DNA of 8,254 bases from an uncultured Rivibacter sp. GTDB lineage: Bacteria > Pseudomonadota > Gammaproteobacteria > Burkholderiales > Burkholderiaceae. Shown piece by piece: positions 2,515 through 8,171 of this stretch. Both the position numbers and the translations under genes were made by a program. Positions within the stretch are counted from its first letter, which is position 1; each line of letters starts with the position of its first letter. The stretch is taken from contig CAMLNA010000168.1 of NCBI GenBank assembly GCA_946481025.1, forward strand, positions 1 through 8,254, in the 5' to 3' direction. Under the pieces are notes generated by a model that saw only the letters and a list, made by a program, of their open reading frames with translations, had not been told where the DNA came from and did no database searches.

Positions 2515-2904
2515 ATGGCCCATGAACAGCATCACCACTGCATCGCCGAGTGTTACGCCTGCGCCGATGCCTGCGACCACTGCGCGGTGTCGTGCCTCAA
2601 CGAGCCCGACCCGAAGTCCATGGCGCGCTGCATCGCGCTCGACATGGACTGCGCCCAGGCCTGCCGCCTGGCGGCCTCGCTGATGGCCCGCGGCAGCCCC
2701 AACGACAGCGCGGCCTGCGCCTTCTGTGCGCTGCTGTGCGAGGCGTGCGCCGAGGAATGCTCGCGCCACGCGATGGACCATTGCCAGGCCTGCGCGCAGG
2801 CCTGCGCGCAGGCCTGCCGCCGGTGCGCCCAGGCCTGCCGCGACATGAGCCACCAGCCCATGCCGCGCACGGCGTCAGCCGCCGGCACGCATGCGCATCA
2901 CTGA
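2515..2904 (+). CDS. Csp3-type cytosolic copper-storage protein (four-helix bundle, DUF326)
   Basis: The 129-aa product has 20 cysteines (9, 13, 16, 20, 23, 27, 39, 46, 50, 68, 71, 75, 78, 82, 90, 93, 97, 101, 104, 108). They are spaced three or four apart along four predicted helices (about 4-28, 33-58, 62-85, 86-112). This is the pattern of the Csp family, where tetramers of Cys-lined four-helix bundles hold many Cu(I) ions in their core. There is no signal peptide or twin-arginine motif, which points to the cytosolic Csp3 type rather than the exported Csp1 type. Extra His residues at the N-terminus (HEQHHH) and C-terminus (THAHH) could add a metal-entry or second binding site. The start has a strong SD. 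No copper pump or CueR-like regulator lies next to it here. Its 3' end overlaps the 3' end of the convergent opgH gene by 7 bp. Older annotations sometimes call such proteins ferredoxins, which the spacing does not support. Confidence 0.9.
   Translation: MAHEQHHHCIAECYACADACDHCAVSCLNEPDPKSMARCIALDMDCAQACRLAASLMARGSPNDSAACAFCALLCEACAEECSRHAMDHCQACAQACAQACRRCAQACRDMSHQPMPRTASAAGTHAHH
2785..2820 (+). repeat. three 12-bp tandem units inside the copper-storage gene
   Basis: CAGGCCTGCGCG occurs twice in a row (2785-2796, 2797-2808), then CAGGCCTGCCGC (2809-2820), encoding QACA-QACA-QACR. A related GCCCAGGCCTGCCGC follows at 2827-2841. The repeats build the fourth Cys-lined helix. In-frame gain or loss of units would move Cys by one helical turn, so this is a plausible slippage site. 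Confidence 0.8.
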
Positions 2905-5105
2905 GCCGCCGCCAGGGCGGAGGCCGCGCGCAGCTGCTGCAGGCTCCCCGGTTCGCTGAGGAAACGCATGCGCTCGGCCACCGAAAGCTCGGTGGCCGGC
3001 GTGGCATGCAGCTGCCGGATACGTGCCAGCCGCGCCTGGCCGCGCAGCCCTTGCGAGGTGCGCCGTGCGCCCATCGCGGCAGCGGCCAGCGCGCACAGGC
3101 CCGCATCGCGCAGCAGTTCGCCCCATGAGGCCCACGCGCTCTGTGTCTGTGGCAAGCGGGCGTAGGCCCAGGCCTGGCGCAACACCGAGGGCGACCACGA
3201 CTCTTCCGGCACCAGCAGCCAGCCGCCGTTGCGCACGCGTTCGCCCAGGCTCGCGCGGCTGGTCAGCACGGTGAAGGGCACGGCCAGCAGCAGCGGCACG
3301 CCCACCGGCAGCAGCCACACCACCGCGGGCGGGTGCACCAGCAGCAGCGCGGCCGCAATGACCAGCACCGCTGCGCCCACCGGTGCGAAGCGCTGGGCGG
3401 CTTCGCGCCAGGGCACGTCGGTGGCCTCGCGCGGGGGCGACTTCCATTCGAGCTTCCAGCCGGTGAGGGCGCCCACCACGAACAGGCTGTGCGCCACCAT
3501 GCGCAGCGGTGCCTGCAGGATGGAAAGTCCGGCCTCGAGCACCGCGCTCTGCAGCAGCTTCCAGGCGCCGCCGTAGTAGTGCTGCTCGCCGCGCATCAGC
3601 ACGGCCAGCACGCCCAGCACGCGCGGCAGGGCCAGCATGGTGATGGTGCCGGCCCACAGGCTGAACACGCCGAGCGCCAGGCTGCCGTCGGGCGCGAAGA
3701 ACACGTTGCCGCCCACCAGCCACAGCGCGGCGCCCAGCGCCACGTACAGCAGCCACAGCGGCGCCGACAGGTAGGCCATGGCGCCGGTGGCCAGCATGCC
3801 GCGGTGCACCGCATGCAGGCCCGGCTCGGCAATGAGCCGTGCGTTCTGCAGGTTGCCCTGGCACCAGCGGCGGTCGCGCTGCAGCTCCGCCAGCATGTGC
3901 GGCGGCTGCTGTTCGTAGCTGCCCACGAGGTCGTGCACCAGCCACACGTGATAACCGGCGCGGCGCATCAGCGCGGCTTCCACGAAGTCGTGCGACAGGA
4001 TCTCGCCCGCCAGCGCGCCGCGGCCCGGCAGCCGGGCCAGCGCGCAGTGCTTCATGAAGGGCTCCACGCGGATGATCGCGTTGTGGCCCCAGTAGTGCGC
4101 TTCGCCCAGCTGCCAGTACTGCATGCCGGCGGTGAAGAGCCGCCCGGTCACGCGGGCGGCGAACTGCTGGGCGCGGGCATGCACCGTGGCATGGCCCACC
4201 GCCTGCGGCGCCGTCTGCAGGATGCCGGCGGTGGGGTGCGCTTCCATCAGGCGCACCAGGGTGAGCAGGCAGTCGCCGCTCATCACGCTGTCGGCGTCCA
4301 TCACGACCATGTAGCGGTGGTTGCGGCCCCAGCGGCGGCAGAAGTCGGCCACGTTGCCGGCCTTGCGCTTGGTGCGGCGCTGCCGCCAGCGGTAGTGCAC
4401 GCGCGCGCCGCAAGCCTGCAGCTGCTCGCGCAGCCGGCCCCAGGCGGCCAGCTCGGCGGCCCGCACGGCGGGGTCTGCGCTGTCGGACAGCACGTAGAAG
4501 TCGAACAGGCGCAGGGCACCGGTGGTGGCCAGCGATTCGCAGGTGGCGCGCAGCCCGGCGAAGACCGTGGCCACGTCCTCGTTGCAGATCGGCATGATGA
4601 CCGCGGTGCTGGCCTGCGGCCCCAGCGGCTGCTGGCCGGCCGACTGCCTGGAGAGCGCGAAGCGGTCGCCGCGCAGCGTGACCCAGAAGCCCATCACCGC
4701 CGTCACGCAGCCGGCCGATACCCAGGCGAAGAGCAGCGCGAACAGGCCGATCTGCACCCACTGCAGCAGCGCATGCTCATAGACGGGTTGCGCATGCGCG
4801 AGCACGGCGGTCGAGCCTGCGGTGGTCAGCGCGACGAGGGCGAGCAGCATGCGCCTGCGGCTGCGGGCCGCCAGCTCCCACGGGGCGAGCTCTGCGGGAC
4901 TCTGTGCGGCCGTGGACCGGCCGGTGGCCGCGAGCCACAGGCTGCGCCAGAAGCCCACCCAGGGCTGCGCCACCATCGAGCCGCGCGCGATGGGCGGCAT
5001 GCTCGGGCCATGCGCGGCCTTGTGGGCCGGCACGGCGGCCAGGGCCAGGGGGTTGGCACTCGTGGTCGCACGAGCGCTCACTGCGGAGGGATGACGTTGC
5101 TCCAT
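2898..5105 (-). CDS. opgH: OpgH (MdoH), glucans biosynthesis glucosyltransferase H
   Basis: This 735-aa inner-membrane protein polymerises glucose from UDP-glucose into the linear beta-1,2 backbone of osmoregulated periplasmic glucans. A cytosolic N-terminus leads to membrane segments at about 86-105 and 115-142. The GT-A catalytic domain (about 165-420) carries MPICNEDVATVFAGLRAT, the metal/UDP-binding DADS (270-273), GEAHYWGHNAIIRV, the catalytic SHDF (371-374) and RDRRW (410-414, the Q/RxxRW motif). Further membrane segments lie at about 438-468, 476-503, 533-550 and 573-612, followed by a soluble tail. It aligns by eye along its length with E. coli OpgH (847 aa) but has a shorter N-terminal region. 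ATG 5105 lies inside the end of opgG (28-bp overlap) and has no good SD, so coupled translation is likely. ATG 5000 (MPPIARGSM) is an alternative start; the open frame further upstream is opgG shadow. No opgB- or opgC-like modifying gene follows. Confidence 0.95.
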   Translation of the reverse strand: MEQRHPSAVSARATTSANPLALAAVPAHKAAHGPSMPPIARGSMVAQPWVGFWRSLWLAATGRSTAAQSPAELAPWELAARSRRRMLLALVALTTAGSTAVLAHAQPVYEHALLQWVQIGLFALLFAWVSAGCVTAVMGFWVTLRGDRFALSRQSAGQQPLGPQASTAVIMPICNEDVATVFAGLRATCESLATTGALRLFDFYVLSDSADPAVRAAELAAWGRLREQLQACGARVHYRWRQRRTKRKAGNVADFCRRWGRNHRYMVVMDADSVMSGDCLLTLVRLMEAHPTAGILQTAPQAVGHATVHARAQQFAARVTGRLFTAGMQYWQLGEAHYWGHNAIIRVEPFMKHCALARLPGRGALAGEILSHDFVEAALMRRAGYHVWLVHDLVGSYEQQPPHMLAELQRDRRWCQGNLQNARLIAEPGLHAVHRGMLATGAMAYLSAPLWLLYVALGAALWLVGGNVFFAPDGSLALGVFSLWAGTITMLALPRVLGVLAVLMRGEQHYYGGAWKLLQSAVLEAGLSILQAPLRMVAHSLFVVGALTGWKLEWKSPPREATDVPWREAAQRFAPVGAAVLVIAAALLLVHPPAVVWLLPVGVPLLLAVPFTVLTSRASLGERVRNGGWLLVPEESWSPSVLRQAWAYARLPQTQSAWASWGELLRDAGLCALAAAAMGARRTSQGLRGQARLARIRQLHATPATELSVAERMRFLSEPGSLQQLRAASALAAAQ

Positions 5106-6616
5106 GTTTCGCTCAGGATGTCGTTGCCGTGTTGAAGGAAACCGCGCAGCTCCACCGGCTGCGTGGCCTTGATCTGCTTGACGCGCAGCGTCATGCGCCA
5201 CGCGCCGGTGGCTTCGTTGCGGTAGGCGTTGCGCTCGACGACTTCGCCGTTGGCGTCGGCCGAGACGACCGCCTTCACCGCGGCGTCGGCGGGCAGCTTG
5301 TCGATGGCAGGGCCGGCGAAGTCGACGACGTACTGGTGCTCGTTGGGGGCCAGCTCGTCGAAGCCGCGGCCCAGCCGCGACTGCACGACCCATGCGCCGG
5401 GCGGTCGTTGCGGCTGGCTGCCCTGCCAGCGCATCTGGTAGGCCAGCTCCAGCGGCTGGCCCGGCGCGGGCGGCTTCTCCGGTACCCAGTAGGCAACGAT
5501 GTTGTCGTTGGTCTCGTCGGGCGTTGAAAGCTGCACCAGCTCCACGCGGCCCGGGCCCCAGTCGCCCACCGGGGAGATCCATGCGCTGGGCCGCAGCTCG
5601 TAGCGCGCTTCGGTGTCTTCGTAGCTGGCGAAGTTGCGGTCGCGCTGCAGGAGGCCGAAGCCGCGCAGCGACTTCATCGCGAACGAGGTGGTCAGGGTGC
5701 GCTTGGGGTTCTGCAGCGGGCGCCAGATCCATTCACCTTCGCCGGTGGCCACCATCAGGCCGTCGGAGTCGTGCACCTCGGGGCGGAAGTCGGTGCGGTG
5801 AGGCTGGTTCTCGCCGAACATGAACATGCTGGTGAGCGGTGCCACGCCCAGCGTGGCCACGCCCGCTCGCAGGAAGAGCTTCGAGCGCACCTCGGTCACC
5901 GTCTCGGCACCGGGCTTCACCTCGAAGCGGTAGGCCCCTGTGGCGCGCGGCGACTCGAGCAGCGCATGGATCACCAGCGACTTGGCGTTGGCGGCCGGCC
6001 GCTCGATCCAGAACTCCGAAAAGCGCGGGAATTCCTCGCCCTTGCCCCCCACCGTGTCGATGGCCAGGCCGCGAGCCGAGAGGCCGTAGCGCTGGTGGGC
6101 GCCGAGCGCGCGGAAGTAGCTCGCGCCCAGGAACACGACGACCTCGTCCTTGTACTTGTCGTTGTTGAGCGGGTAGTGCACCCGAAAGCCGGCATAGCCC
6201 ACGTCGCCCCAGGCCTGGGGCGAGAGCTTGTTCTTCCCGTAGTCGAAGTCGTTGCGGTCGAAGGTGAGGTGCTTCACGCCCTGCGGCGTGACCTCGTTGA
6301 TGAGCACCGGCTCGGTCTGGAATTTCCCGAGGTGGAAGAACATCACCTCGAAGGGCAGCTTCTCGCGGCGCCACATGGCGCGCTCGGGCTTGAAGCGGAT
6401 GTCGCGGTACTGGTCGTAGGTGAGCGCCTTCAGCTCGGCCGGAAGCGTCGAGGCCTTGGGGCGGTACGGTTCGCGGGCGAGCGCCTGCGCGCGCTCGGCC
6501 ACGTCATCGAAGCCGAAGCTCGCAGCGCGTGCGGCGCCGCCGGCCACCAGCCCGGCGAGCAACAAACCGACACACACCGCGCCTGGCCTGAGGGGGAGGC
6601 GAAAGGGGCGGGACAT
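5078..6616 (-). CDS. opgG: OpgG (MdoG), periplasmic glucans biosynthesis protein G
   Basis: From ATG 6616 the product has 512 aa, essentially the E. coli OpgG length. It has a Sec-type signal peptide (basic MSRPFRLPLR, hydrophobic VCVGLLLAGLVAGG, predicted cut after ARA, residue 31) and no twin arginine, which favours OpgG over OpgD. Conserved family blocks are present: FDRNDFDYGKN (119-129), GYAGFRVHYPLN (140-151), LGASYFRALGAHQRYGLSAR (163-182), EEFPRFSEFWIERP, GEWIWRPLQNPK (294-305), GFGLLQRDR, LRPSAWISP and DETNDNIVAYW (367-377). OpgG acts in the periplasm on the nascent glucan and is essential for glucan production in E. coli; the family has been linked to beta-1,2-glucan cleavage (GH186). 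It is first in the opgG-opgH operon. ATG 6622 (MQM...) is an equally possible start; a TTG at 6658 is unlikely because it lies upstream of the predicted transcript start. A sigma-54 promoter candidate directly precedes it. Confidence 0.95.
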   Translation of the reverse strand: MSRPFRLPLRPGAVCVGLLLAGLVAGGAARAASFGFDDVAERAQALAREPYRPKASTLPAELKALTYDQYRDIRFKPERAMWRREKLPFEVMFFHLGKFQTEPVLINEVTPQGVKHLTFDRNDFDYGKNKLSPQAWGDVGYAGFRVHYPLNNDKYKDEVVVFLGASYFRALGAHQRYGLSARGLAIDTVGGKGEEFPRFSEFWIERPAANAKSLVIHALLESPRATGAYRFEVKPGAETVTEVRSKLFLRAGVATLGVAPLTSMFMFGENQPHRTDFRPEVHDSDGLMVATGEGEWIWRPLQNPKRTLTTSFAMKSLRGFGLLQRDRNFASYEDTEARYELRPSAWISPVGDWGPGRVELVQLSTPDETNDNIVAYWVPEKPPAPGQPLELAYQMRWQGSQPQRPPGAWVVQSRLGRGFDELAPNEHQYVVDFAGPAIDKLPADAAVKAVVSADANGEVVERNAYRNEATGAWRMTLRVKQIKATQPVELRGFLQHGNDILSETWSNVIPPQ

Positions 6617-6633
6617 TTGCATCCCGGTCCCAT

Positions 6634-6650
6634 CGCAACGCCCGTGCCAA
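6634..6650 (-). promoter_or_regulatory. sigma-54 (-24/-12) promoter of opgGH
   Basis: Read on the minus strand the site is TTGGCACGGGCGTTGCG. It matches the consensus YTGGCACG-N4-TTGCW at all eleven bases of TGGCACG and TTGC with the exact N4 spacing; only the last W is G. The -24 GG is at 6648-6647 and the -12 GC at 6636-6635. Transcription would start near 6623, one base before ATG 6622 and seven before ATG 6616. The upstream gene encodes a sigma-54 activator, and an IHF-consensus site and inverted repeats lie upstream. The match and context make chance unlikely, but activity is inferred. Confidence 0.68.
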
Positions 6651-6667
6651 AAGAGCAACCCCTTTTA

Positions 6668-6680
6668 AATCAACGACTTG
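6668..6680 (+). promoter_or_regulatory. IHF-binding site candidate between promoter and upstream sites
   Basis: AATCAACGACTTG matches the IHF consensus WATCAA-N4-TTR at every defined base, with an A/T-rich stretch (CTTTTAA, 6662-6668) on its 5' side as strong sites often have. Its centre lies about 50 bp upstream of the predicted opgG transcript start, where IHF bends DNA so that an enhancer-bound activator can touch sigma-54 polymerase. Confidence 0.5.
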
Positions 6681-6689
6681 CGATCGCCT

Positions 6690-6707
6690 GCGCGGCAAAT
6701 TCCGCGC
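6690..6707. promoter_or_regulatory. inverted repeat 1, candidate activator site (GCGCGG-N6-CCGCGC)
   Basis: Perfect 6-bp arms lie at 6690-6695 and 6702-6707 around the A/T-rich spacer CAAATT. The centre is about 75 bp upstream of the predicted sigma-54 transcript start. The 18-bp overall length equals that of the E. coli GlrR site (TGTC-N10-GACA), but the sequence differs. GC-rich arms can arise by chance in this genome. Confidence 0.3.
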
Positions 6708-6713
6708 GAATGC

Positions 6714-6734
6714 CGCATTGCAACAAAAAATGCG
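6714..6734. promoter_or_regulatory. inverted repeat 2, candidate activator site (CGCATT-N9-AATGCG)
   Basis: Perfect 6-bp arms lie at 6714-6719 and 6729-6734 around an A-rich nine-base spacer. The centre is about 100 bp upstream of the predicted opgG transcript start, within the usual range for enhancer sites of sigma-54 activators. Its A/T-containing arms make it less likely to be a composition artefact than repeat 1. On the minus strand its spacer gives the T6 run that could also serve glrR termination. Confidence 0.33.
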
Positions 6735-6749
6735 TCGGGCCCAGGCGAC

Positions 6750-6771
6750 TGCGGCGCCCGAAGGCGCCGCA
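6750..6771 (-). terminator. stable hairpin after glrR, possible terminator
   Basis: A perfect 9-bp stem (arms 6750-6758 and 6763-6771) closes on a loop that on the minus-strand RNA reads C-UUCG-G, an exceptionally stable tetraloop. It begins 33 bases after the glrR stop. The nearest U run (complement of A6 at 6725-6730) is about 20 bases beyond the stem, so it is not a textbook intrinsic terminator. Partial read-through into opgG is possible. Confidence 0.45.
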
Positions 6772-6803
6772 AGTACTTGATAGAGCTGGAGAAAACGCAG
6801 TCG

Positions 6804-8171
6804 CTATTCAGCGACCTGGGGTTCGGCAGGCGGCTCGCCGCGGAACTGCCCGGGGGTCAGGCCGTGCTTCTGGAGGAGGCGGTAGAACTCGGTGCGGTTA
6901 CGTTCTGCGAGGCGCGCGGCATCGGCCACGTTGCCGTCGGTCATCTTCAGCAGGCCCACGAGGTACTCGCGTTCGAACCGGGTGCGGGCCTCGGCATAGC
7001 TCAGCACCTCCATGGTCGGCACCCGCAGGGCGCGCTGCACCAGGGCCAGCGGAATGAGCGGCGTGGTGGCCAGCGCGGTGACCTGCTCGACCACGTTGTG
7101 CAGCTGGCGCACGTTGCCCGGCCACGAGGCCGTGGCCAGCGCCTTCAGGGCGTCGGAGGCGAAACCGTTGACGCGCTTGCCGTACTTGTCGGCCAGCTTC
7201 GAGAGGAAGTGATTGGCCAGCAGCGGGATGTCTTCGCGCCGCGCCGCCAGCGGCGGCACGGTGAGCGACACCACGTTGAGCCGGTAGTAGAGGTCTTCGC
7301 GGAACTGGCCCTCGCGCATCGCGCTGTCGAGATCGCGGTGCGTGGCCGACATGATGCGCACGTCGACCGGGATGGCTTCCGTCGCGCCCACCGGTCGCAC
7401 CATGCGCTCTTGCAACACACGCAACAGCTTCACCTGCAGCGGCAGGGGCATGTCGCCGATTTCATCTAGAAACAGGGTGCCGCCATCCGCTGCCTGGAAG
7501 AGGCCTCTGTGATTGGCCACGGCGCCGGTAAAAGCGCCTTTCACGTGTCCAAAAAGTTCCGACTCGAGCAGGTTCTCGGGAATGGCCCCGCAGTTCACCG
7601 CCACGAAGGGCCGGCTCGAGCGCGAACTCGCGCCGTGGATGGCATGCGCGAGCAGCTCCTTGCCGGTGCCGCTTTCGCCGCGGATCAGCACGCTGGCGTC
7701 GGAGCCCGCCACCAGCTTGGCCTCGGCCAGCAGCTCGGCCATCACGTTCGATCGGCTCACGATGGCTTCACGCCACACCTCGCCTTCGCGCGGGCCGGTG
7801 CCCGGCGGCGCTGCGAGCGACAGCGCCTGCGCGATGGTGTCGAGCAGCGCCTTGCCGTCGAAGGGCTTGGTGAGATAGGTGTAGACGCCGCGCGAAGTGG
7901 CCTCCACCGCATCGGGGATGGTGCCGTGCGCGGTGAGCATGATCACCGGCAGCGAGGGGTGCTTGGCGCGGATCGCGTCGAACAGCTGCATGCCGTCCTT
8001 GCCGGGCAGCTGCACGTCGCTCACCACGAGCTGCGGGCGCTCCACCGCGAGGCGGGCAAGCGCGTCCTCGGCGCTTTCGACGGCGGTCACGCGATAGCCG
8101 GCGGCGCCGAGGCGCATCGACAGCAGGCGCAGCAGGTCGGTGTCGTCGTCAACGAGCATCACGTGATTCAT
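6804..8171 (-). CDS. glrR: GlrR-type sigma-54-dependent response regulator
   Basis: This 455-aa NtrC-family regulator aligns closely by eye along its length with E. coli GlrR (QseF). The receiver domain (1-120) has the acidic pocket D9/D10, phosphoacceptor D52 ([12 protein letters not shown]), T80 and K102. The AAA+ domain (about 135-380) has Walker A GESGTGKE (165-172), the sigma-54 contact loop GAFTGA (212-217), Walker B TLFLDE (232-237), arginine-finger candidates R291 and R297, and sensor II in WPGNVRQL (350-357). The C-terminal Fis-type helix-turn-helix (413-438) contains NRTEFYRLL, nearly identical to E. coli GlrR (NRTEFYKLL). All residues needed for ATP hydrolysis and sigma-54 activation are present. 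ATG 8171 starts exactly at the receiver domain; a weak GGGG lies upstream. The cognate histidine kinase should lie just beyond the window. In E. coli GlrR activates the small RNA gene glmY and rpoE; here it directly precedes opgGH and its sigma-54 promoter candidate. Confidence 0.95.

Follow-up and report, generated by a model that had tools for sequence, protein, structure and literature searches.

The window analysed here, a stretch of 8,254 nucleotides from an uncultured Rivibacter sp. (contig CAMLNA010000168.1), carries on its minus strand a glrR-like gene for a sigma-54 response regulator, followed by opgG and then opgH. Comparison with related loci makes it very likely that the gap between glrR and opgG (roughly 180 bp, with the two genes codirectional) serves periplasmic glucan synthesis as a sigma-54 promoter of the enhancer-dependent kind, worked by a GlrR-like activator through two upstream activator sites (UAS) and by integration host factor (IHF), and probably yielding an opgGH mRNA that is leaderless or nearly so. 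The elements of this promoter, their order, their spacing and their conservation are observed directly in the sequences compared. Mechanistically, we infer from them binding by GlrR, dependence on IHF and sigma-54, a start site and leaderless translation, which together would work as follows: the phosphorylated GlrR/QseF-like regulator would bind UAS1, which lies over the glrR stop codon, and UAS2 downstream of it, some 67 bp away; IHF would bend the DNA immediately upstream of the -24 element; and GlrR would remodel the sigma-54 polymerase, leading to transcription of opgG and opgH beginning on the opgG start codon or no more than about 3 nt from it. The signal may be the state of the envelope, perceived by way of a sensor kinase with a QseG-like partner.

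Promoter elements and their conservation

The -24/-12 element (TGGCACG-N4-TTGC, minus strand, 6635..6649) carries 11/11 core bases and is the single site of that quality in the window, where shuffles give an expectation of 0.03. An earlier note made from the letters of this DNA alone (the original prediction) had proposed that a sigma-54 promoter drives opgGH, and the element with all eleven core bases that it described is borne out at 6649-6635. The check that it suggested, namely whether relatives that share the gene order conserve these elements ahead of opgG, was carried out on 45 loci and supports the sigma-54 reading. These were drawn from 110 loci (the window, 29/30 loci of a first search and 80 named loci, with L001 omitted as lying on the same contig as L035), 48 of which had glrR directly upstream of opgG, that is, within 900 nt, and three contig repeats (L036, L059 and L088) were dropped. 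Scanning the stretch from glrR to the sequence coding for mature OpgG, we found a best sigma-54 core of 11/11 in 6 loci, 10/11 in 32, 9/11 in 5 and 8/11 in 2, which places 43/45 at 9/11 or better; among dinucleotide shuffles (n=4,500), 0.62% scored at least 10/11 and 5.7% at least 9/11. The nearest relative compared, Methylibium rhizosphaerae C1-9 (G001), whose OpgG is 97% identical to that of the window, has two rpoN-type genes (PF04552; L031, L032) and also encodes IHF/HU-family genes.

Upstream of this element, the promoter-proximal IHF site WATCAANNNNTTR (plus strand, 6668..6680) matches the consensus perfectly and has its centre ~51 bp upstream of the predicted start at 6623, in agreement with the full IHF consensus that had been placed about 50 bp upstream of the start. 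A second perfect match, which the original prediction had missed, lies on the minus strand at 6770..6782, between UAS1 and UAS2, and similar sites were seen by eye, uncounted, in several relatives. At up to one mismatch, the window holds three IHF matches as against 0.40 expected. Among the 45 loci, an IHF-like site scoring at least 8/9 stands 22-32 bp before the TGG in 41 (perfect in 29 of the 41), and at -30 to -32 from the TGG in 40.

Farther upstream, the loci share conserved palindromes with the pattern TGTCGC-N6-GCGACA. For comparison, one source gives the QseF (= GlrR) consensus as TGTCN10GACA (PMC8745638), and another has QseF binding three TGTN12ACA sites at the glmY sigma-54 promoter, with help from IHF (PMC6075780). 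In the window, the GlrR-type palindromes lie at about -185 and -118 and are UAS1 (minus strand, 6799..6816), which lies over the glrR stop codon and has its register and palindrome in common with relatives, and UAS2 (minus strand, 6733..6750), a weak site that stands at -101 from the TGG, as in L004, and likewise keeps the register of relatives; each has 6/8 consensus bases. Their cores, GTCG-N8-CGAC, lie at 6800-6815 and 6734-6749 and account for two of the three such cores in the window, where 0.30 are expected. When 7/8 bases and a palindrome are required, 38/45 loci have at least two UAS and 43/45 at least one; two UAS occurred in 0/4,500 shuffles (shuffled and scanned stretches differing slightly in extent). 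Of the 38 two-UAS loci, 33 have UAS1 and UAS2 separated by 65-69 bp, and the remaining five by 78, 78, 79, 92 and 161 bp. UAS2 itself stands 79-122 bp before the TGG across loci, and its 11 distinct distances show helical phasing with a period of 10.5 bp (R 0.74; P 0.00015, rising to 0.0012 if the period is scanned).

These GlrR-type sites, by their conservation, support GlrR as the activator, as the original prediction had hinted, though not at the positions that it gave. The inverted repeats that it had singled out are present near -75 (GCGCGG/CCGCGC) and -101 (CGCATT/AATGCG) and are not meaningful, being 2 of 21 such pairs in 216 bp; we rejected them as activator sites because neither stays intact in M. 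rhizosphaerae, where the GTCG-N8-CGAC cores are retained. A terminator-like site at 6816-6799 was likewise rejected as being mainly a terminator, since it coincides with UAS1, itself conserved in relatives; the site could conceivably serve in both roles. Between UAS1 and UAS2, and overlapping UAS2 by one base, lies a perfect inverted repeat (6750-6771; arms of 9 bp, loop of 4 bases); it may act as a terminator of glrR, though one that lacks a T-run, or simply as a spacer.

The regulator itself (minus strand, 6804..8171) matches PF00072, PF00158 and PF25601, and GAFTGA is read in its translation; its C-terminal helix-turn-helix was recognized by eye from a comparison of 13 loci, with no domain model matching it. 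GlrR is its best NCBIfam model (621.5 bits, ~195 bits ahead of the next), and it probably works like GlrR. Upstream of glrR in M. rhizosphaerae stand a histidine kinase gene and a gene that is weakly QseG-like (E 2e-4, 20.7 bits vs a cut-off of 234); the window ends before these.

The start codon at the predicted transcript start

Two candidates for the start of opgG (minus strand, 5078..6622; PF04349, 665.9 bits) are found in the window, ATG 6622 and ATG 6616, and the first is the most likely, because the second reads ATC in M. rhizosphaerae (alignment with L035). Positionally, ATG 6622 is 13 nt after the -12 C and falls at the predicted transcript start (minus strand, 6622..6623, a distance of 12-13 nt from the -12 C, which puts it on the ATG or one base ahead), a coincidence that the original prediction had overlooked. 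The same geometry recurs in 40/45 loci, which have an in-frame start codon (39 ATG, 1 GTG) 12-15 nt after the -12 C: at 13 nt in 25 loci, 14 in 9, 12 in 4 and 15 in 2. Given that sigma-54 promoters have their GG at -24 and their GC at -12 relative to the transcript start (PMC4842269), the first base of the start codon would fall at about +1 to +4. With a start codon at the expected transcript start in so many loci, the opgG mRNA is probably leaderless, or nearly so, in most glrR-opgG loci, that of the window included.

The 11-nt spacers that follow the -12 C are of 34 distinct sequences among the 40 loci and, except for their first three positions, of low information content, while their length is constant. 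As a control, an ATG with a frame of at least 80 amino acids at 12-15 nt was found at 0/22 other 11/11 sigma-54 sites in four genomes. Shine-Dalgarno pairing at the 40 starts (mean -3.85 vs -4.17 at 3,116 background ATGs) showed no enrichment, with L013, L072 and L011 scoring -6.2 to -7.6. Where opgH rather than opgG comes first (n=14 loci), an in-frame ATG stands at 13-15 nt in seven loci and a GTG at 15 nt in one. Separately, L135, L140 and L145 share a short, similar frame that opens with an ATG 13 nt beyond the -12 C and is possibly a leaderless upstream open reading frame. In L135 and L140 this ATG is not in frame with opgH, and L145 has no opgH match.

Distribution across the family

In a family sample of 150 genomes, opgG occurs in 46 and glrR (E up to 1e-140) in 38, and the two occur together in 34 (Fisher P 3e-19, descent not corrected for). 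The module is present in 34/34 of the latter, before opgG in 18 and before opgH in 16; in these 16 genomes opgH follows glrR, with the same module before it, and opgH was confirmed after the module in L132-L144 and L146 (14 loci), plus L194 and L195. The sigma-54 core is at least 9/11 in 33 of the 34 (8/11 in G040), and the UAS at least 7/8 in 33 (6/8 in G001). Twelve genomes have opgG without such a glrR; in the 11 of them examined (opgG of G107 is cut by the contig end), a core of at least 10/11 with a UAS of at least 7/8 was found in 0/11, the scan covering the regions upstream of opgG. A further 21 opgG- or opgD-like copies, some of them in opgG-only genomes, have neither such a core nor such a UAS.

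The module was also found at opgG where glrR is not adjacent. In G119, opgG lies ~50 kb from glrR and the module sits at opgG (L005), and in the 12 kb surrounding its glrR (L147) there is a single UAS-like match, of 7/8, while sigma-54 cores of 10/11 are absent; in G089, the module is likewise at opgG across a glrR-opgG gap of ~1.7 kb (L148). Among the 62 loci without glrR directly upstream, the module (core 10/11 plus UAS 7/8) is present in four (L005, L019, L034 and L076), with glrR slightly further upstream in L076 and no glrR match found on the locus of L034. G066 has glrR and the module, with no opgG or opgH match within the 12 kb examined. Three genomes without an opgG match (G031, G050 and G033) have a glrR that is more distant, at 61-69% identity, and in them a sigma-54 core and UAS follow glrR and precede other genes. 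In two of the three, a downstream frame has a BON domain, which for G050 falls below Pfam's cut-off and is not in the first frame. By locus, small genes follow such distant glrR genes, with their sigma-54 core and UAS, in L149, L150 and L151, the BON domain being that of L149 and, below the cut-off, of L150.

Among perfect TGTCGC-N6-GCGACA sites, 12 of 25 are at the opgG promoter, which holds the sole perfect site in six genomes (G085, G075, G072, G134, G077 and G089). With moderate confidence, we posit a rule for the family as a whole: a sigma-54 enhancer promoter that would start its transcripts on the start codon, a leaderless mRNA for glucan synthesis, an envelope-sensing system of GlrR type devoted largely to this one target, and one enhancer site inside the stop codon of the activator's own gene.

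As for the remainder of the window, opgH (minus strand, 2898..5105; 735 amino acids) matches the NCBIfam MdoH model PRK05454.2-3 at 1061.9 bits vs a cut-off of 829, and overlaps the 3' end of opgG by 28 bases. Just past it, on the opposite strand, 2515-2904 encodes a small protein rich in cysteine (DUF326) that weakly matches the Csp1 family of copper-storage proteins, and 1169-1453 encodes a small protein with a Pmp3 domain (PF01679).

Weighing the alternatives, and known systems

Several observations weigh against the promoter as we read it. The regulator scores 621.5 bits where the NCBIfam GlrR cut-off is 763, and it is for this reason that we call it GlrR-like. Two of the 45 loci, L012 and L102, are those with a core of 8/11, and the window and M. 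rhizosphaerae, with their 6/8 sites (GGTC-N10-GACT and AGTC-N10-GACG in the register of the family), are the sole two loci without a 7/8 UAS. In a search for a wider GlrR regulon in 14 genomes, the 25 perfect TGTCGC-N6-GCGACA sites compare with 36 for the reversed control. In five opgG loci (L004, L009, L017, L018 and L102) the first start codon lies at least 27 nt downstream, and in 26/45 the position 12 nt beyond the -12 C holds a C, a poor initiator, so that a start at 13 nt, which has A in 27/45, would be likelier. Finally, the loci are related, and the counts are thus not independent trials.

Some of these points lend themselves to a different account, unlikely in our estimate yet carrying real weight, in which the sigma-54 module is real and the mRNA is not leaderless, either through an unusual start distance or with the true start codon downstream and the ATG spacing merely inherited. 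The transcript start is a predicted one, many loci have in-frame start codons downstream, and common descent and the five loci that lack the geometry fit such an account. The spacers, however, have kept their length through 34 distinct sequences in 40 loci, no such ATG stands at the 22 other 11/11 sites of four genomes, L002, L055, L081 and L016 show no candidate past the promoter other than the ATG at 13-14 nt, and the same spacing precedes opgH in 7/14 opgH-first loci. Alternatively, opgGH could be transcribed mainly by read-through from the glrR operon or from a sigma-70 promoter, with the sigma-54 element a minor contributor. The genes are indeed codirectional and 180 bp apart, but a scan of 6500-6950, limited to consensus sigma-70 sites, returned 0 sigma-70-like sites, and the module is kept both where opgG is ~50 kb from glrR (L005) and across the ~1.7 kb gap of L148, which makes this an improbable explanation. 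That the motifs are chance matches in GC-rich DNA might be argued from 5/62 loci lacking an adjacent glrR (L021, L077, L078, L079 and L094), which have a core of 10/11 and no UAS; the joint, ordered conservation in the 45 loci as against shuffles, and in 34/34 genomes, already contradicts it, and we give it almost no credence. The enhancer-dependent sigma-54 promoter thus remains our preferred reading.

The E. coli opgGH (mdoGH) operon encodes the same enzymes, OpgG and OpgH, and its control is classically described as osmotic; to our knowledge, there is little description of how bacteria other than enterobacteria control the synthesis of periplasmic glucans. As a promoter, the module resembles that of enterobacterial glmY (QseEF = GlrKR), which has a GlrR-kind NtrC-type regulator, multiple TGTC-N10-GACA sites, IHF and sigma-54, and adjoins the regulator's own gene cluster (PMC6075780 and PMC8745638). 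The target of that promoter is a small RNA, whereas here it would be opgG/opgH, and glmY is reported to have three UAS where the opg loci usually have two. Also unlike glmY, UAS1 here lies within the glrR stop codon, the start codon stands at the expected transcript start, and the scan of 6500-6950 for consensus sites turned up no sigma-70 promoter overlapping the sigma-54 one. The E. coli rpoE sigma-54 promoter, activated by QseF, is alike in directing GlrR/QseF output to envelope functions (PMC6075780), and differs in target and genome context.

Promoter type and activator type are already known, while the target and the start-codon geometry were not met in the literature searched. We found no link of RpoN or GlrR to opgGH, nor this start-codon geometry, in a search that left subscription journals mostly outside, such that absence in print is unproven; the terms opgG, mdoG and glucan do not occur in the main texts of PMC3162934 and PMC12316311.

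If the promoter works as proposed, it would give the study of leaderless translation a simple test case that has a sigma-54 promoter. Biologically, glucan synthesis would then be an output of envelope stress, not just an osmotic one, and in many members of one family it would answer to a sigma-54 system akin to the one controlling glmY and rpoE in E. coli, which suggests a general role in envelope maintenance for GlrR-type regulators.

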